Shown here piece by piece: positions 10,280 to 31,534 of a DNA stretch of 39,539 nt. Origin of the DNA: Campylobacterales bacterium (lineage in GTDB: Bacteria; Campylobacterota; Campylobacteria; Campylobacterales; QNZT01); the NCBI GenBank assembly GCA_027066435.1, contig JAMONX010000067.1, positions 1 through 39,539 on the forward strand, given 5' to 3'. The notes beneath the pieces are model-generated. The model made no database searches. It had not been told where the DNA came from and saw nothing but the letters and a program-made list of their open reading frames with translations. Position 1 is the first letter of the stretch. Each line of letters starts with the position of its first letter. The translations under genes were made by a program, and so were the position numbers.

Positions 10280-10868
10280 ATTAAAAAAAGATATCTTAAG
10301 AACCTTTGAAACAAGTACAGGAAGTAAGCCAAAACGATTTATATCCTCTATGCTCTCTGCTGGAGTTAGAACTATGATAATTGTCCGCTTTGGACAGTGG
10401 ATAGATAATAAAAATATTGTAATAAAGTTATTTTTAATGCCTATATATTTTATCTTAAACCAACGGGTCAAATGGAAATTTGGTATACAGATACCAAAAT
10501 CTGCACAAATAGGTGAAGGTTTTTATATTGGTCACTATGGAGGCATAACAATAGCTTCAGATGCAGTTATAGGTAAAAATGTAAATATATCCCAACTTGT
10601 AACAATAGGCGAATCAGGACAGGGTGAAAAAGCGGGTGCTCCAACAATAGGAGATAATGTCTATATAGGAGCAGGAGCTAAAATAATAGGCAAAATTAAA
10701 GTAGGAAATAATGCAAAAATCGGTGCAAATGCAGTCATATATAAAGATATTCCAGATAATGCGATAGTTGTCTCATATCCTGGATATAAAATCATCTCTT
10801 ATAATGGAAATTATCCTGTTAAAACCCTGAAAACAATGGGGTCAGTTGCCACCTTAAAACCCCATTAA
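10272..10868 (+). CDS. Left-handed beta-helix (hexapeptide) O-acyltransferase, CysE-like
   Basis: Probably transfers an acetyl group to a sugar or serine-like acceptor. I place the start at the ATG at 10272 (AKLKKDILRTFE), which overlaps the previous stop by eight bases; an upstream in-frame ATG at 10224 lies deep in the previous gene. A helical N-terminal part of about 65 residues is followed by hexapeptide repeats (IPKSAQIGEGFYIGHYGGI, VIGKNVNIS, IGDNVYIGAGAKIIG, KVGNNAKIGANAVIYKDIP). The histidine of IGHYGG matches the catalytic histidine of serine acetyltransferase-type enzymes. The last 15 or so codons run into an inverted repeat abutting an IS110 relic, so the C-terminus may be altered. 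Confidence 0.78.
   Translation: MAKLKKDILRTFETSTGSKPKRFISSMLSAGVRTMIIVRFGQWIDNKNIVIKLFLMPIYFILNQRVKWKFGIQIPKSAQIGEGFYIGHYGGITIASDAVIGKNVNISQLVTIGESGQGEKAGAPTIGDNVYIGAGAKIIGKIKVGNNAKIGANAVIYKDIPDNAIVVSYPGYKIISYNGNYPVKTLKTMGSVATLKPH
10835..10866. repeat. Inverted repeat (AATGGGG/CCCCATT) at acyltransferase end
   Basis: A perfect 7-base inverted repeat with an 18-base spacer spans the last codons of the acyltransferase and abuts the IS110 transposase relic. It has no T-run on either side, so it is unlikely to be a plain terminator. It may be an insertion-sequence end or a recombination scar. Confidence 0.35.
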
Positions 10869-11257
10869 AAACTAAGGGAATTTGTTGCAACCATTGCAGC
10901 CATAAAAAGAGTACCACGAAAGATTTTTCCTCCAGCTTTAGAGATACTACTTTTACCTTTTATGGATGTTCCTGATTCTCTTATAATAGTATCAAGCCCA
11001 ACTAAAGATGTTATTTGTCCCTGGTTTGCATTTGGATATTTTATAAAAAGATAAATGAGAATAATTGCAGTTATTTTGCCAATACCATCTATTGAGAAAA
11101 TTGATTTATATTTTTGTAAAAGATGGTCATCTTTTGCAATCATAATAGCGAGTGAAAGCATTTTTGCATCTGTCTTATCACTTTTATTTCTTTGAGAAAT
11201 AGCTTTTGCGAAGTTATGGGATTGTTTAGGATTTATGATAAAAACTTTTATCTTCAA
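10865..11257 (-). pseudogene. IS110-family transposase relic, truncated and internally deleted
   Basis: About 130 residues against the usual 300 or more. The first part (VFIINPKQSHNFAKAISQRN, then KSDKTDAKMLSLA) is the middle of the DEDD RuvC-like domain. It jumps after AIMIAKDD to the later domain (SIDGIGKITA, GLDTIIRESGTSIKGKS, ISKAGGKIFRGTLFMAAMVA), so the intervening segment is deleted. The true N-terminus and the last part of the C-terminal domain are also missing. The only usable start is a TTG. It overlaps the acyltransferase stop by four bases, as expected for old insertion debris. It is not expected to be active. Confidence 0.8.
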
Positions 11258-11288: not shown

Positions 11289-12143
11289 ATGAGAGAGAAG
11301 AAAAAAGAACAATTTATCTACGATAGAACCATAAGAGAGATCTTCCAAGAGATCCCAACAACATTCGTAAAACTACTAACCAATAAAGAAGCAAAAGAAC
11401 TCCTAGAGACAAAGTTCCCAAAAGTAGAAGAAAAAGAGGCAGATCTTGTAGTAAGATTGGAAGATGATACTATATTTCATTTAGAGATCCAACTTTCAGA
11501 TGATAAAACTATGCCAACTAGAATGTTATACTATGCCCTACTAATAGAAAATAAACATAAACAGTACCCACTACAAACAGTACTATACCTAGGAGAGAAT
11601 AAAAATCAAACTCTAAATAGTATAAAAACAAAAAAACTACAATATAGCTATGGAGTAAAATATATAAAAGATATAGATTGTGAAACACTAATAGAGAGTG
11701 AAGATATAAACGATAATATACTAGCAATACTATGCAGTGTAAAAGATATAAACCTCCTACTAAAAAGACTATCAAAAAGATTAAACAGTTTAAGTGAAAA
11801 AAAAAGAGAAGACTATATCAGAAAACTTCTATTTCTTTTTAGACTAAGACCAAATTTATATGATATAATAACGCAAGATACAAAAAAGGAGTTAAGCATG
11901 CCATTTGTAATAGATAAAGTAAAAGATCCGTTTTATAAAGAGGGTATTGAAAAAGGTATTGAAAAAGGTATTGAAAAAGGTATTGAAAAAGGTATTGAAA
12001 AAGGTAAGATAGCTGGTAAACAAGAAGAGCAAAGAGCTATAGCTATAAGCTTACTAGATATACTAGACGATAAGACAATATCACAGAAAGTTGGATTGAG
12101 CTTAGAAGAGGTTAAAAAGTTAAGAGATTCTCAAGGTTTGTAA
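11289..12143 (+). CDS. Rpn/YhgA-type PD-(D/E)XK nuclease family protein
   Basis: 284 residues. The N-terminal part (YDRTIREIFQEIPTTFVKLL) and the nuclease core, EADLVVRLED followed by TIFHLEIQLSDD, match the Rpn/PD-(D/E)XK transposase-like family, with catalytic D and ExQ residues near positions 53 and 66-68. Members of this family promote RecA-independent recombination in E. coli. The C-terminal region carries five exact GIEK repeats and then a helix-rich tail (ISLLDILDDKTISQKVGLSLEEVKKLRDSQ). It sits among transposase relics, so it is probably an accessory gene. Function in this host is unknown. Confidence 0.75.
   Translation: MREKKKEQFIYDRTIREIFQEIPTTFVKLLTNKEAKELLETKFPKVEEKEADLVVRLEDDTIFHLEIQLSDDKTMPTRMLYYALLIENKHKQYPLQTVLYLGENKNQTLNSIKTKKLQYSYGVKYIKDIDCETLIESEDINDNILAILCSVKDINLLLKRLSKRLNSLSEKKREDYIRKLLFLFRLRPNLYDIITQDTKKELSMPFVIDKVKDPFYKEGIEKGIEKGIEKGIEKGIEKGKIAGKQEEQRAIAISLLDILDDKTISQKVGLSLEEVKKLRDSQGL
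11943..12002 (+). repeat. Five perfect tandem copies of a 12-bp unit
   Basis: The unit GGTATTGAAAAA occurs five times without mismatch inside the Rpn-type gene and encodes (Gly-Ile-Glu-Lys)x5. The unit is a multiple of three, so changes in copy number keep the frame. Similar GxEKG runs occur at this place in the family as a length-variable, probably helical linker. Confidence 0.95.
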
Positions 12144-25814: not shown

Positions 25815-26639
25815 TTATCTTAGCTGAGAGAGTATCTCTTTTTTTGTGCCAATTTCAACGATTTGAACGCCAAAGTTTCCGTCGATGATTACAACTTCAC
25901 CTTTTGCGATTATTTTCTCGCCTACTAAAACATCTAACGGTTCATTTGCAAGTTGATCTAACTCTACTACTGAGCCAATATCCATACTGAGTACATCTTT
26001 TAAAAGTACTGTTTTTGTTCCTATTCTAACTCGAACAGGTAGAGGAACATCAAGTAAAAGCTCCATGTTTTTAAGCTCGTCTGCACTCAATGATGTTGAT
26101 TGTTTATCTTCTTGTTGATTATCTTCATCAGCACTCTCATCTATGCTTTGAAAATTTGAGATAAATTCATTATCAGCTGCAAAGTACATTACAGCCGTAG
26201 TATTTGCAACTTTAACCTCAAATGAGTTGATAGTAGAAAAATTTTCAAAATTTGAACCCTCTTCAAAAAACTCTATATCTTCTATCTCAAAAGTTAAGTT
26301 TGGCAAATCATTATCAGCAGAGAGTGCAGTTGAAATGGCTCCAAAGATATTTGACATAATCTCTTTGGTTGCATCTATGTCATCTTCACTCATACTTGTC
26401 TGTTCTTCGCCTTCACCACCTAACATCATATCACTTAATGCAGTTGCAAGTGATGTATCCATACCAAATGCGATAGAACCTGATTCACACTTTAAGTTAG
26501 CAAGAGCCATTGAATGTTGGTTTATAAACTTTTCATCAATATTAGTGCTTCCTTGATGTAAAATCTCTGGAGCATGCCCTGTCAATCCTTCAATAACTGA
26601 TGCAGTTTCTGAGTTTAATAGATTTATGAAATTATTCAT
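25815..26639 (-). CDS. fliY: Flagellar motor switch protein FliY
   Basis: Component of the cytoplasmic C-ring, in Campylobacterota a FliN-related protein with an added CheC/FliM-like N-terminal part. 274 residues. The N-terminal region (HSMALANLKCESGSIAFGMD, SDMMLGGEGEE) is CheC-like. The acidic linker is near 160-185. The C-terminal SpoA/FliN domain starts LLLDVPLPVRVRIGTKTVLL (about 192-211) and ends NFGVQIVEIGTKKE. It overlaps fliM by eight bases, the arrangement usual in this phylum. Confidence 0.93.
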   Translation of the reverse strand: MNNFINLLNSETASVIEGLTGHAPEILHQGSTNIDEKFINQHSMALANLKCESGSIAFGMDTSLATALSDMMLGGEGEEQTSMSEDDIDATKEIMSNIFGAISTALSADNDLPNLTFEIEDIEFFEEGSNFENFSTINSFEVKVANTTAVMYFAADNEFISNFQSIDESADEDNQQEDKQSTSLSADELKNMELLLDVPLPVRVRIGTKTVLLKDVLSMDIGSVVELDQLANEPLDVLVGEKIIAKGEVVIIDGNFGVQIVEIGTKKEILSQLR

Positions 26640-27708
26640 TGATTACTTCTTTTTTAATATTTTTAGTGATATTTTTGAGTTTTTCATATTTTTCCAACTC
26701 ATATTTTTGTAAAATTTCTTTTATCTCATCTTTATCATTTTTAATTACTTTTGATATCTTAAGTGTTTTATGATATCTGTGTATTCCCATTTGAGCTTCA
26801 AAAATCTCTTTTTTATCTACAGATATGACCGCTGTATCAGAAGCTGGACGATTGAGCCTTATTATACTACCTTTTTCTAATGATAATAAATCTTTAACAT
26901 TAAGTGTAGTTTCACCTAATATTCCTTCATAAATGATGTCAGCTCTCTTTACAAGTTCTCTAAGTTCACTATTTCTACTCTTTTTTACACTAGTTTCACC
27001 AATCATGATATCTTTATTTGCTAACTTTGAGAGTATTGGTTCAAGATAGATTACAGGATAAGCTAAATTTATCATCCCACTTGTCTCTCCAATCGTAATC
27101 TCTAATACTATCATAATGACAATTTCATTTTGTGCAACAATTTGAATAACATTTGGGCTTGACTCTTTAGATTCAACTATAGGATAAAGTTCAGTTACTC
27201 CAGCCCATGCATCTTTTAATTTGCTCATAATAAGTCTTAAGATTGTCTCTAAAAGGTTGAGCTCAATATCAGATAGTTCTCTTTCACTATCATAGCTCTC
27301 ACCCTTACCACCAAGTAATCTATCAAGCATAGGAAATGCAATAGAAGGGTTTAATTCTAATACGGCACTTCCATCTAATGGTTTTAGGGAAAAGATATTA
27401 AAACTTGTAGGACTAGGAAGAGACATCAAAAACTCTCCATAAGTCATCTGATCAACGGATTGGAGTTGTATTTCAATAATCGAACGCATGACAGTTGATA
27501 TATGAGAAGCCAAATTTCGTGATAATTTATCATGAATACTTTTGATTGCACGAAGTTGCTCTTTTGAAACACGATTAGGTCTTTTAAAATCATAGAGCAT
27601 GATCTTTTCATCAGGCTCACTTGACTCTTCTAGTCTCTGTTCATCTTCTTCATCAACACTACCATCAAGAAGTGCATCAATCTCATTTTGACTTAATATA
27701 TCTGCCAT
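26632..27708 (-). CDS. fliM: Flagellar motor switch protein FliM
   Basis: C-ring protein that binds phosphorylated CheY and sets rotation direction. 358 residues. The N-terminal CheY-binding segment, ILSQNEIDALLDG (residues 4-16), is intact. The middle domain shows YDFKRPNRVSKEQLRA, the HISTVMRS block and a LLGGKG motif. The C-terminal SpoA domain includes TTLNVKDLLSLEKGSIIRL. It lies seven bases after fliA and overlaps fliY. Confidence 0.95.
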   Translation of the reverse strand: MADILSQNEIDALLDGSVDEEDEQRLEESSEPDEKIMLYDFKRPNRVSKEQLRAIKSIHDKLSRNLASHISTVMRSIIEIQLQSVDQMTYGEFLMSLPSPTSFNIFSLKPLDGSAVLELNPSIAFPMLDRLLGGKGESYDSERELSDIELNLLETILRLIMSKLKDAWAGVTELYPIVESKESSPNVIQIVAQNEIVIMIVLEITIGETSGMINLAYPVIYLEPILSKLANKDIMIGETSVKKSRNSELRELVKRADIIYEGILGETTLNVKDLLSLEKGSIIRLNRPASDTAVISVDKKEIFEAQMGIHRYHKTLKISKVIKNDKDEIKEILQKYELEKYEKLKNITKNIKKEVINE

Positions 27709-27715
27709 GTTTTAC

Positions 27716-28405
27716 CTAAACAGTTAATCTGTCTCTTATAAGTTTCATAAGCTTTTTATGAAGTTGTGAAATTCTTGATTCGCTAATTTCCAATATTTCA
27801 CTGATCTCTTTTAAGTTTAATTCCTCAAAATAGTAAAGTTGTATGATAATCTGTTCTCTATCACTTAGTGTTGTCAAAATCCCTTTAACCGCTTCAATAA
27901 GTTGCTCTTGTTCTACTCTCTCTTCAACACTATCTACTTGGTTTGTCATTATTTGCTCATTAAGGGGAACATTGTTTGCAATCTCTGCAGCTACTTTAGC
28001 ATCTCTGATTTTTGATAAACTTTCACCTAGTTTTTCTGCTAAAAATTTATCGGTTGGTTCACGGCTATGTTCTGTCAAATGTTTACTAGTCTCTGTGTCA
28101 ATTGCTTTTATTATTCTTCTGTTATTTCGACTAACTACATCTAAGCTTCTTAGGTGATCTAACATAGAGCCATAAACCCTCTTTTTTGCATAACCCCAAA
28201 ATGAGTCATTTTGACTAATGTCATATCTTCTTGAGAGTTTAACCATCTCTTCTATTCCAATTGCTATTAAATCATTAACATCAATTGATGAAGGCAATCT
28301 CTCTTTTAATCTAAATGACATAGCTCTAACCGCTGGTAAATACTGAATTACCATCTCATTTGTCTCTGTATATCTTCCTTTTTTCTCTAATACTTTACTG
28401 CTCAT
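27716..28405 (-). CDS. fliA: RNA polymerase sigma factor FliA (sigma-28)
   Basis: Directs RNA polymerase to late flagellar promoters. I choose the ATG at 28405 (MSSKVLEKKGRYTETNEMVI), which gives 229 residues and an 11-base overlap with the upstream gene; an upstream in-frame codon at 28444 would overlap 50 bases. Region 2 is visible in LPAVRAMSFRLKERLPSSIDVNDLIAIG and DSFWGYAKKRVYGSMLDHLR, and region 4 in LSDREQIIIQLYYFEELNLKEI followed by SESRISQLHKKLM. Its downstream neighbours are fliM and fliY. The nearest promoter is the sigma-54-type site at 28821-28836. Confidence 0.93.
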   Translation of the reverse strand: MSSKVLEKKGRYTETNEMVIQYLPAVRAMSFRLKERLPSSIDVNDLIAIGIEEMVKLSRRYDISQNDSFWGYAKKRVYGSMLDHLRSLDVVSRNNRRIIKAIDTETSKHLTEHSREPTDKFLAEKLGESLSKIRDAKVAAEIANNVPLNEQIMTNQVDSVEERVEQEQLIEAVKGILTTLSDREQIIIQLYYFEELNLKEISEILEISESRISQLHKKLMKLIRDRLTV

Positions 28406-28730
28406 CAACCCTAATCTCCTTCTTTTTATATCCGTCGTTCTCATAAATGCTTTTCAAAATAGCTGTAATTAACTCTTCTCGCTTTTTAATTTCAGCTATT
28501 TGACTGTTTACCGATGTTTCATACTCATGTTTGTCAAAATACTTATCTTCAGCCTCTTTTGCGGAGAGAAAAAAGATTAAGACAATATGAATAAATAGAT
28601 AGAAAAAAAGTGTAATCGCTAAGGTGGAAAATAGAAATCCAGATGCAGTATCAATTTTTACCATAGAAAAAATTATCCCAATGAAAAAACCACAAATTAT
28701 AAAAAATGCGACATAATTTTCACTTCTCAA
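28395..28730 (-). CDS. Small membrane protein in the flagellar operon (Cj0062c-like position)
   Basis: 111 residues from a TTG start preceded by AGGAAGAGAT. Two hydrophobic segments (about residues 7-24 and 29-54) are followed by a charged cytoplasmic tail with a short coiled-coil-like part (SQIAEIKKREELITAILKSI). It holds the place occupied by Cj0062c between flhG and fliA in C. jejuni, a putative membrane protein without known function. In this genome the accessory island separates it from flhG. It overlaps fliA by 11 bases. Confidence 0.75.
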   Translation of the reverse strand: MRSENYVAFFIICGFFIGIIFSMVKIDTASGFLFSTLAITLFFYLFIHIVLIFFLSAKEAEDKYFDKHEYETSVNSQIAEIKKREELITAILKSIYENDGYKKKEIRVDEQ

Positions 28731-28820
28731 ATCTCTTCCTTTTCGTAAAATATTAAATATTACTAAAAGTTGACTATTAAACGCCTTAGGGAAACTTCAC
28801 AACCTCTCTATAGGTCTATA

Positions 28821-28836
28821 AGCAAGTAGTGTGCCA
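28821..28836 (-). promoter_or_regulatory. Sigma-54 (RpoN) promoter, -24/-12 elements
   Basis: The minus strand reads TGGCACACTACTTGCT: TGGCAC, five bases, TTGCT. This matches the consensus TGGCAC-N5-TTGCW exactly. The predicted start of transcription is near 28811, about 80 bases before the TTG of the small membrane protein. The predicted transcript covers the small membrane protein, fliA, fliM and fliY. The remainder of 28731-28975 contains no convincing gene. Confidence 0.75.
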
Positions 28837-28975
28837 ATTTTTTATTGACATAAATCAAATGAATATTGTTATTTCTATTATCTGTTTTGATCTCTTCTAT
28901 GGCTTGCTAAAACATTCAGGTGTCATAGGTATAAAGACTATGAACTAAATTTATTTGAGAAGTGCATTTGTTATT

Positions 28976-29014
28976 TTATATATTTGAGATAGTTTCTAAT
29001 TGCTTTTTAGACAT
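28976..29014 (-). pseudogene. Possible truncated HepT-like toxin start
   Basis: An ATG overlapping the end of the nucleotidyltransferase gene opens MSKKQLETISNI and stops after 12 codons. HepT/DUF86 toxins usually follow MNT antitoxin genes with just such an overlap, so this may be the stub of a lost partner. The stub is too short for proof. Confidence 0.3.
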
Positions 29015-29330
29015 AAATCACCTCTTTTGGAATATCACTCTTTTTTAAACCTGAAATATCACAGATATCTACCCTAATACCACCAAATCTATTAGATATA
29101 CTCTCTCTAATCTCTTGAAGTCTTGAAAATGCTCTAAAAGCTGGATAGTTTTTCAAAAAAAGTTCATCAGTCTCAATCAATATATCTATATCACTACCAA
29201 AAGATGCATCACCTCTTGCAAACGAACCAAAAAGACCAAGCTTTTTAATACCCTCTTTTTTTAATGCAGTCTTAATCTCTTTTAGATACTCCAAAACATT
29301 GTCTTTGCTTATAAAGTCAGTGATTTGCAT
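29007..29330 (-). CDS. MNT-type nucleotidyltransferase domain protein (orphan antitoxin)
   Basis: 107 residues of the minimal nucleotidyltransferase family. The catalytic motif GSFARGDASFGSDID lies at residues 35-49 (G-S-x10-D-x-D), followed by the third acidic residue in VDICD near residue 95. Family members adenylylate a HepT (HEPN) toxin and so neutralise it. Here the downstream HepT gene is missing or reduced to a 12-codon stub, so the protein looks orphaned. It is part of the accessory block inside the flagellar operon. Confidence 0.85.
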   Translation of the reverse strand: MQITDFISKDNVLEYLKEIKTALKKEGIKKLGLFGSFARGDASFGSDIDILIETDELFLKNYPAFRAFSRLQEIRESISNRFGGIRVDICDISGLKKSDIPKEVIYV

Positions 29331-29372
29331 AAAAGTGACCTTTTTTGTTTAAATTATACCATGAGTTTGAAA

Positions 29373-29419
29373 AACCTCAAAACCAGTAAACTGCATCTAT
29401 TTCAAAAGGTTGTGACTCA
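29373..29419 (-). repeat. Imperfect 47-bp direct repeat, copy A
   Basis: Matches 30404-30450 at 44 of 47 bases by eye. On the minus strand it encodes SQPFEIDAVYWF and a stop, a second copy of the C-terminus of the DUF5615-like gene at 30408-30599. No open reading frame leads into this copy, so it is a gene fragment. The gap 29331-29479 otherwise holds nothing recognisable. Confidence 0.85.
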
Positions 29420-29479
29420 TCACATATACCTTTATTTCTACCACTAGTACCGTTCCCACTAAGTATCACCTAGTTTTGT

Positions 29480-29971
29480 TTATTTTACATCCTTTAAAAT
29501 CATATCTAGTAGTTTCTTACTCACTCGAAAATCTGATTGTTCTAACCTCTCTAGTAGTAATAAAACTCTTTTTTTTGATATCTTTTTAGTATCATAGAGT
29601 GCTTTTATAATACCTATTAGTCCTATTATCTCTATATCCATATTTTTGGCTACACTTCTGCCTTTTTTTTCATCTATGATTAGAGGAAGTTTTAGTTCTA
29701 TTGCTAGTGTTATTGCGGCTGATTCTCCACTATCTAGGTTGATTTTTAGTTTATTATAGAGATTTTTGTTGTTTACTTTTTGTATTACAATAATTTTGGT
29801 TTTGATTTTTTGATCCAAAAATTTTTTTGCATTATCAAAAATACTCACTTCATCATAAACCTCTTTTGGAACTATTATTTTTGTTGCAAACTCCTCAAGT
29901 AGCAAAAACGACTCTATATTTATCAGTGTTATAAGTGCAGTTGCATCTGAGATGATTAGTTGTTTAGCCAT
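29480..29971 (-). CDS. DUF3368-type PIN-domain toxin
   Basis: 163 residues. The PIN nuclease acidic residues are present: Asp9 in ISDATALI, Asp80/Glu83 in LDSGESAAITLA and Asp100 in LIIDEKKGR, followed by IEIIGLIGII, a layout typical of DUF3368. Such proteins are thought to be RNases of type II toxin-antitoxin pairs. The start overlaps the antitoxin stop by 16 bases, supporting a coupled pair. The gene appears intact. Confidence 0.85.
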   Translation of the reverse strand: MAKQLIISDATALITLINIESFLLLEEFATKIIVPKEVYDEVSIFDNAKKFLDQKIKTKIIVIQKVNNKNLYNKLKINLDSGESAAITLAIELKLPLIIDEKKGRSVAKNMDIEIIGLIGIIKALYDTKKISKKRVLLLLERLEQSDFRVSKKLLDMILKDVK

Positions 29972-30294
29972 TTTTCTACTATTTTTGCTTCATCATCCAG
30001 CTCTTTTTGAGTATATTCAACCCAATCGATTTTTAAATCGTTTAGAAGTTTCATCGCTTCAGATTTGGAGATTTGTAGTATCTCTGCCATCTTTCCCATA
30101 GAGATAGCACCACTTTTATAAAGCTCCAAAGCAACAGCTTTTTTAATGCCTATAGATAAAATATTTTCATTTAGAGGTAGTGTGATACCTATTGGTTTGC
30201 CATGCTTTGTTACAAATACAAGCTCATTATTTTCAAGATGTTTTGTCAAATCTGATGGATTGTTTTTAAGATCTCTGATAGCCATAGTCTGCAC
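29956..30294 (-). CDS. Antitoxin with Phd-like N-terminus and UPF0175-type helix-turn-helix
   Basis: About 112 residues. The first 45 or so (MAIRDLKNNPSDLTKHLEN, then ELVFVTKHGKPIGITLPL) look like Phd/YefM antitoxins. The following part (KKAVALELYKSGAISMGKMAE, then ILQISKSEAMKLLNDLKI) is a UPF0175-type helix-turn-helix. I prefer the GTG at 30294, five bases after AGGAG; an ATG at 30285 and a GTG at 30300 are alternatives. It precedes and overlaps the DUF3368 toxin, as UPF0175 antitoxins usually do. It should bind both its toxin and its own promoter. Confidence 0.8.
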   Translation of the reverse strand: MQTMAIRDLKNNPSDLTKHLENNELVFVTKHGKPIGITLPLNENILSIGIKKAVALELYKSGAISMGKMAEILQISKSEAMKLLNDLKIDWVEYTQKELDDEAKIVEKWLNN

Positions 30295-30326
30295 TTCCAC
30301 TCCTTTTTACTACATTTTGTAGGTAT

Positions 30327-30332
30327 ATTATA
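30327..30332 (-). promoter_or_regulatory. Predicted -10 box for the UPF0175/DUF3368 pair
   Basis: The minus strand reads TATAAT 32 bases before the GTG at 30294, followed by AAAAAGGAG. This implies the pair is expressed from its own promoter and not only by read-through from flhF-flhG. Confidence 0.5.
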
Positions 30333-30403
30333 CTAAAGTTTAACAATTTTTCATAGCATTTGAGCTAGTTATTTTCTTTAAAATTTCTTAATATTTTAGC
30401 ATA

Positions 30404-30450
30404 AACCTCAAAACCAGTAAATTGCATCTAGTTCAAAAGGTTGTGGCTCA
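30404..30450 (-). repeat. Imperfect 47-bp direct repeat, copy B
   Basis: Partner of 29373-29419. This copy forms the 3' end of the DUF5615-like gene (PQPFELDAIYWF and stop). The two copies bracket the UPF0175/DUF3368 pair in the same orientation. Confidence 0.85.
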
Positions 30451-30599
30451 CTTTTAAAAGTTCTTTGGTTAGTTTTATATTTTGTATCGATATTGTCAGA
30501 GTACCATCCTAAACCTATTTGAGGAAGAGTCCATACTTCATCTTGTGTAAAAAACTGAGTTAGCTTTTTTGGCAGACACTCATCTATGATAATTTTCAC
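30408..30599 (-). pseudogene. DUF5615 PIN-like toxin, internally deleted
   Basis: 63 residues from a GTG start. MKIIIDECLPKKLTQFF is the standard opening of DUF5615 PIN-like proteins, normally about 110-120 residues long. After VWTLPQIGLGWYSDN the central part with the remaining acidic residues is missing, and the sequence passes into a short C-terminus ending DAIYWF. It is probably a non-functional remnant, although the frame is open. An antitoxin tail lies directly upstream. Confidence 0.7.
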
Positions 30600-30712: not shown

Positions 30713-31534
30713 TTAAAAGTTGTCAATAACTCTTTTGATAAAGAGTTTAAAGCTATTTTTTGTTTTCTTAGGAGGGGCTTGGTTTTCTAATTGTAAAATG
30801 AGATTATCAACTATTTCACTTAAGTGAAAGGAGGAGAGAGAGCTTGGAGTTGTTTTTGTAAAAAGTTGACGAAATTTTATACTTTTTGATATATTTTTAG
30901 ATGTTTCTATATGACCTAGATAATTTAAGGAAAATGGAGTCTCTATATTGTTTTTAGCAACTTTTCTAATATTTTCATATATAACTTTTCCCTCTTTCTC
31001 ATTTTCAGTCATATTTACAATGAGATTTAAGTTTTTATTTATAGTAGAGGTGATTTTGATAAGAGTATATGCATCTGTAATAGCAAGGGGATTTGAAGTA
31101 GTAACGATAATTATCTCGTCTGCACATTGTAAAAATATTTTAGTAAAATTTCCTATACCGCTACTTGTATCGATGATAAGATAATCAAGTTTATCTAAAA
31201 ATGAAGACTTTTTTAATAAAGCCTCTTGTATCACTTTAGGCTCATATTGTAAAATCTCATCACCACTTTCACTTGGTATAAGAGTAAGATTATTATCAAT
31301 TGTGATTTTGATATCTTCAAGCGTGCATTCACCCTTTAGTACATTTAAAAAGTTGTTTTTTGATTTTACATTAAATATGATGTCAAGATTAGAGAGACCG
31401 ATATCTCCATCAAATATACCAACTTTGTACCCCTTATCAGCCAAGAGAAAAGAGATGTTTGCAGAAATCATACTCTTGCCAACTCCACCTTTTCCACTTG
31501 CGATTGCTATAACCTTTGTTTTTTGGTCAATCAA
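30713..31534 (-). CDS. flhG: Flagellar number regulator FlhG (MinD/ParA-like ATPase, YlxH)
   Basis: Limits flagellar number by acting on FlhF and the assembling motor. 273 residues. The deviant Walker A GKGGVGKS lies at residues 14-21, followed by VGIFDGDIGLSNLDI and the Walker B-like YLIIDTSSGIG (about 137-147). The start is a TTG that shares TTGA with the flhF stop, and an in-frame TAG lies directly before it, so the protein has only 13 residues before the P-loop. The downstream neighbour should be the small membrane protein, but the accessory island intervenes. Confidence 0.92.
   Translation of the reverse strand: MIDQKTKVIAIASGKGGVGKSMISANISFLLADKGYKVGIFDGDIGLSNLDIIFNVKSKNNFLNVLKGECTLEDIKITIDNNLTLIPSESGDEILQYEPKVIQEALLKKSSFLDKLDYLIIDTSSGIGNFTKIFLQCADEIIIVTTSNPLAITDAYTLIKITSTINKNLNLIVNMTENEKEGKVIYENIRKVAKNNIETPFSLNYLGHIETSKNISKSIKFRQLFTKTTPSSLSSFHLSEIVDNLILQLENQAPPKKTKNSFKLFIKRVIDNF

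Follow-up and report, generated by a model that had tools for sequence, protein, structure and literature searches.

Which promoter serves the sigma-28 gene fliA and the switch-protein genes fliM and fliY when an island lies between them and flhF-flhG, and where did that promoter come from? The locus that raises this question lies in a stretch of 39,539 nucleotides (the window), contig 67 of a Campylobacterales genome that was searched in all its 159 contigs. Here, we find on the minus strand, at 28821-28836, a sigma-54 (-24/-12) promoter element, TGGCACACTACTTGCT (Table 1). We give a probability of roughly 80% to the reading that it is a working sigma-54 promoter of smp-fliA-fliM-fliY, where smp encodes a small predicted membrane protein, and that it was once embedded in flhG and became uncoupled from it by duplication of the flhG tail. 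What makes the site interesting is its origin, more than its perfect match.

Table 1. Features around the fliA promoter region, with positions in the window
Feature	Position	Strand	Evidence or remark
fliY/fliN-type switch protein	25815..26639	-	Pfam FliMN_C, E 2e-21
fliM, switch protein	26632..27708	-	Pfam FliM, E 2e-73
fliA, sigma-28	27716..28444	-	Pfam Sigma70_r2/r4
smp, small predicted membrane protein, TTG start	28395..28730	-	kept between flhG and fliA order-wide
Second leader block, TAAGGCnTwTAATAGn6TTTTAGTAAnATTTAATAT	28750..28788	-	alignment of detached loci
Candidate sigma-70 -10 box, TAATAT (TAANAT in relatives)	28757..28762	-	predicted; ~20 nt before smp
Non-coding degenerate second copy of flhG 3' end	28763..28846	-	now promoter and 5' leader
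Sigma-54 promoter element TGGCACACTACTTGCT	28821..28836	-	same place in 11/11 detached loci (window, L068-L074, L076-L078)
Island between flhG and promoter	29007..30599	-	absent from L068, L069, L071, L072
MntA-like nucleotidyltransferase (island)	29007-29330		
DUF3368 protein (island)	29480-29971		
UPF0175 protein (island)	29956-30300		
ORF fragment (island)	30408-30599		
Intact flhG	30713..31534	-	tail codes LENQAP; sigma-54 site gone
Codons TTA GAA AAC CAA GCC CCT in intact flhG	30773..30790	-	place of the embedded promoter in relatives

A sigma-54 element ahead of the fliA operon

As a previous sequence-only reading of this DNA had claimed, TGGCAC-N5-TTGCT is present as a single copy in the window; its mean count in 100 dinucleotide-preserving shuffles is 0.01. 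The GG and GC dinucleotides have the spacing of a sigma-54 promoter, and the match is exact over the core TGGCAC-N5-TTGC. Directly after TGGCAC the textbook consensus prefers G, and the window has A. The distance to the smp TTG start at 28730 is 90 nt, so the earlier figure of 80-90 bases before smp and fliA fits smp, while fliA starts further downstream, at 28444. Transcription is predicted to start near 28810 if C28822 is taken as -12 (28811 in the earlier reading).

The genome encodes the machinery that such a site would need. There is one rpoN (G000:C111, 421 aa, RpoN box region present) and one strong Sigma54_activat match, a FlgR-like enhancer-binding activator of 406 aa with receiver and AAA domains. 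This activator stops directly after the AAA domain and, because it has no C-terminal HTH, an upstream activator site may be dispensable for it. The extended pattern TTGGCAC-N5-TTGCTT occurs exactly twice in the whole genome, the second occurrence lying 33 nt upstream of a flgF/flgG-like rod gene, and the next-best intergenic sigma-54 sites include ones before flgI-like (P-ring) and fliK-like genes, all these genes being named by sequence without a family search. By this shared pattern TGGCACACTACTTGCT resembles the flagellar sigma-54 sites of its own genome, and its promoter type is common to the rod, P-ring and fliK-like genes. Sigma factor, activator type and kind of site are likewise those of the FlgSR/RpoN middle genes of Campylobacter and Helicobacter (PMC3930126). 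However, the known FlgSR/RpoN regulon comprises rod, hook and minor flagellin genes, and fliA, fliM and fliY count there as early genes under sigma-70 (PMC3930126).

The conservation of the site, of its distance to smp and of the gene order strongly suggests that the site drives fliA-fliM-fliY and provides a direct link from sigma-54 to sigma-28. RpoN holoenzyme and the FlgR-like activator would start transcription at the predicted position and raise smp-fliA-fliM-fliY together with the rod and hook genes, in the middle flagellar class, and sigma-28 and the switch proteins would rise after the export apparatus has been built. If this is true, RpoN stands directly above FliA and the switch proteins, an unrecognised link through a site that is kept by selection at synonymous positions.

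In textbook schemes for both Campylobacter and Helicobacter, fliA belongs to the early sigma-70 genes. Could the sigma-54 share then be minor or conditional, with the main fliA promoter a sigma-70 promoter, either at the TAANAT box of the leader or further upstream? We regard this as doubtful, with a real if minority chance of being right. In C. jejuni, fliA is classed as sigma-70-dependent and early (PMC7105676), and the text of an RNA-seq study of a C. jejuni rpoN mutant, in which 17 genes were reduced, does not mention fliA as one of them (PMC3353397). The leader, moreover, holds a second block that is conserved despite being non-coding in the window and that includes a -10-like box; this TAANAT box fits the published C. 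jejuni -10 motif gnTAnaAT (PMC3847290) and may be a basal sigma-70 promoter. On the other hand, the strict conservation of the sigma-54 site throughout the phylum implies an important role, and in the window 2 kb of island part the operon from flhF-flhG. Lower fliA, fliM and fliY expression in a C. jejuni flhF mutant (PMC7105676) may reflect polarity. Because the C. jejuni literature calls fliA sigma-70-dependent, a second promoter for fliA is likely, and the candidate in the leader would reconcile the sigma-54 site with that literature: in addition to the proposed sigma-54 promoter, it probably gives basal fliA expression.

Transcription of fliA from sigma-54 promoters, predicted here, has precedents elsewhere. 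In Pseudomonas putida an flhA-flhF-fleN-fliA operon is sigma-54-driven, with an additional promoter within the operon (PMC6424431), and in Vibrio cholerae early genes including fliA are under sigma-54 (PMC3930126). Unlike the present case, these systems have FleQ/FlrA master regulators, and their promoters lie upstream of flhA or flhF, not inside flhG. Our literature search, which covered article texts, found no report of a sigma-54 promoter inside flhG serving fliA in Campylobacterota.

The smp product (111 aa, no Pfam family) is a predicted two-helix membrane protein whose gene lies between flhG and fliA throughout the order (window, L068-L147), and this constant place suggests a flagellar function.

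A decayed flhG tail around the site

What is the DNA in which the site lies? In translation it reads ..KKLAHYLLIDL*RGCEVSLRRLIVNF*, where relatives have KLEHKVLNS..FVRRLIEKF*, and the bases that follow the site are a broken flhG tail (..LRRLIVNF*). The sequence-only reading had recognised the site and overlooked the decayed second flhG 3' end that surrounds it. Aligned with the flhG tail of L079, the degenerate copy reaches a Smith-Waterman score of 91 (at most 51 in 1000 shuffles). With the flhG tail of the window itself the score is 29 (p 0.03); these two tails are too diverged for direct proof of a duplication, and their relationship shows through sister genera. Where flhG and smp adjoin, in genera of the same family, the codons for the tail K-L-E-H-K-V/L-L are AAA TTG GAA CAC AAA GTG CTT, and these form an in-frame sigma-54 site. 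At this place the intact flhG of the window's genus (g1) encodes LENQAP or LEHQAP, with leucine as TTA, CTT or CTA and without a site. In the sister genus g4 the intact flhG has retained the site as well, so that it is present in both copies.

These observations suggest the following course of events. The ancestral state, still present in nearly all sampled Campylobacterota, would be a promoter written in frame in the end of flhG. In an ancestor of g1, perhaps shared with the sister genus, the flhG tail, probably together with smp-fliA, would have been duplicated in tandem. The upstream copy would then have kept the protein and, in the window's genus, lost the promoter; the downstream copy would have kept the promoter, lost the frame and drifted to the full consensus (TGGAAC to TGGCAC, GTGCT to TTGCT). 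Inserts, including the window's toxin-antitoxin island, would from then on have been tolerated between the two copies. In a tree of FlhG, FliA and FliM, g1 and g4 belong to one clade, in which an unsplit genus comes between them at bootstrap 49. A constraint that unites g1 with g4 has a cost of 0.15 log units (AU p 0.50); a single duplication common to both is possible, and there may have been one event or two.

In g4, a small ORF lies directly after flhG, below the embedded site (L073 4370-4597, L074 1759-2016, L077 1679-1930). It matches Pfam Sigma70_r4 with E 0.003 and 0.008, below the cut-off, and the FliA profile with ~11 bits. This ORF may be what is left of a second fliA copy, or else a new regulator under RpoN, and it hints at a duplicated unit that extended through smp and fliA.

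A history without tandem duplication, in which a related copy took the place of the front of flhG (or flhF-flhG), or that front was displaced, and the old tail stayed behind, would also account for a remnant that is far closer to sister-genus tails than to the window's own (91 vs 29). We consider it unlikely, as the intact FlhG proteins of g1 and g4 look vertically inherited, with tails NSFxLFxKR common to both, and g1 is a normal clade in the FlhG+FliA+FliM tree, where FlhG enters only within this combined set.

Under duplication-degeneration-complementation (subfunctionalisation), two ancestral functions are divided between duplicates. Duplication of the flhG tail would similarly have split two functions of one ancestral sequence between copies, each half losing the function of the other. 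Here, unlike in the standard model, the two functions would have been a protein code and a promoter that shared the same bases, and no more than the gene end would have been kept twice. If true, the window's lineage is a natural experiment in uncoupling a promoter from coding sequence; our literature search found no description of embedded-promoter release by partial duplication for the flhG-fliA system.

Selection on the embedded site across Campylobacterota

In a first sample of 80 named loci, the order flhG-smp-fliA is kept wherever flhG is on the same fragment. NTGGAAC-N5-NTGCT occurs in frame 0 in the flhG tail, within about the last 80 bases of the gene, in 63/63 contiguous flhG-smp-fliA loci, a set that leaves out the detached genera (g1, g4) and six gastric-type Helicobacter. 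C. jejuni NCTC 11168 carries it in flhG as TTGGAACACAAAATGCTT, just before Cj0062c-fliA. Each protein and its codon usage together predict 1.86 occurrences where 63 are observed, these loci being related by descent, so that neither the 63/63 nor the column statistics are independent trials. When FlhG proteins less than 75% identical are compared, motif codons take ranks 1-4 of 273 FlhG columns in synonymous-identity excess, and the third base is invariant in 3 of 269 columns, all three within the motif. The 63 flhG tails thus show what is expected of an intragenic sigma-54 promoter, namely selection beyond the protein, on the sense strand, inside a coding sequence. The window's own site is no longer intragenic, as the flhG tail around it is non-coding.

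Could selection on the FlhG C-terminus (L-E-R/H/Q-x-V/M/L-L) keep the motif without any selection on the DNA? The tail is conserved as protein, with the Glu and the last Leu invariant in 63/63 loci. However, four of the six residue positions vary (L/M/V, E, R/Q/H, variable, V/M/L, L) and the bases T, G, GAA, C, TG and CT are fixed; third bases are invariant only in the motif, and Arg codons are without exception CGN, Leu codons NTG or CTN. In two families (f5, f11) and one genus (f2g19) the leucine has become Ser or Lys and GGAAC-N6-TGCT is still there, and the genus of the window has conserved the motif in sequence that has ceased to be coding. Protein-level selection is thus a very improbable explanation.

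A second sample of 40 genomes (26 genera and 8 further families, from an even draw of 120 phylum genomes) contains rpoN in 40/40. The full motif is present in 32/40 and the core GGAAC-N6-TGCT in 7 more (39/40), those in which the first codon is now Ser or Lys; one genome has lost it. The conserved core equals the C. jejuni sigma-54 motif from mapped starts, GGaa-N6-tTGCTt (PMC3847290). In family f5 (L148-L152), TCG (Ser) replaces NTG before GGAAC and the T before GG is lost, which makes these sites a natural variant of the -24 element.

The exceptions are of one kind: six gastric Helicobacter in the first sample and one gastric-type genus in the second are without the site, which, being lost there, is dispensable in these bacteria. 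Among these gastric-type loci (L097, L102, L112, L122, L125, L135, L167), five have kept TGGAAC and lost the -12 GC. The loss suggests that control of fliA has been rewired in this group.

E. coli has conserved intragenic sigma-54 promoters in nagB, yqeC and rlmD (PMC4591121). As there, a sense-strand site inside a gene would drive the next gene and is conserved across species. The E. coli leaders measure 360-760 nt, and conservation is reported chiefly within a single family (PMC4591121), whereas the site here lies ~90 nt from the next gene and is conserved order-wide. A further difference is that in one lineage here the site has become separated from the coding sequence.

Detachment of the site before arrival of the island

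The five same-genus relatives all carry the site, 106-128 bp before smp. In four of them (L068, L069, L071, L072) nothing is inserted between flhG and smp and the gap measures 162-247 bp; the fifth has a cytochrome c7-type gene in the gap. The sister genus g4 has TGGCACnnnACTTGCT or a close variant 108-124 bp before smp, and its gap holds other inserted genes (CAP-domain and DUF7477 genes). Altogether, the detached site is present in 11/11 loci of g1 and g4, and 11/11 of these non-coding copies have changed to TGGCAC and TTGC. Because same-genus relatives without an insert and g4 with other inserts all carry it, the site is older than the island. The sequence-only reading had allowed that the site may be native and had proposed a comparison with island-free relatives; run on all four, this comparison bears it out, with the addition that the site derives from a phylum-wide one inside flhG.

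It is hardly credible that the island or some other insert brought the promoter in, even though it sits directly at the island edge: the four insert-free relatives, the different inserts of the sister genus and the derivation from the flhG tail stand against it, and the relatives without the island refute it. A chance match to a short consensus, conceivable in an AT-rich genome with 458 forward-strand matches at up to three mismatches, is refuted by conservation and has practically no probability left, the site being exact, unique in the window and conserved at an equivalent position in every relative of the genus.

At least three different inserts occupy the flhG-smp gap among relatives. The earlier suggestion that the site may have been essential for the island to be tolerated is plausible if modified so that the promoter had already been detached from flhG before the island came; because of this detachment, inserts in the gap leave fliA connected, and the freed promoter would have made the operon junction tolerant of mobile genes. 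The wider proposition, that the fliA operon is fired phylum-wide from an in-frame sigma-54 promoter in flhG, that a partial tandem duplication split the overlaid codes in this lineage, and that the freed promoter reached the full consensus and left the junction open to mobile inserts, appears to us somewhat more likely than not.

The island itself is a toxin-antitoxin island between the intact flhG and the degenerate copy of its tail. A search of plasmid records for similar DNA found none. The MntA-like nucleotidyltransferase (28967-29330) is without an obvious HEPN partner, and a few codons of a following frame are left between it and the promoter. A 48-nt direct repeat (94%) at 29372-29419 and 30403-30450 flanks the DUF3368/UPF0175 pair, its second copy forming the 3' end of the ORF fragment, which suggests two related insertions or one duplication. 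Elsewhere in the window, visual inspection of the ORF list points to an apparent transposase fragment (10865-11257) in the polysaccharide gene region, together with an ORF (11289-12143) that resembles a PD-(D/E)XK/Rpn-type protein.
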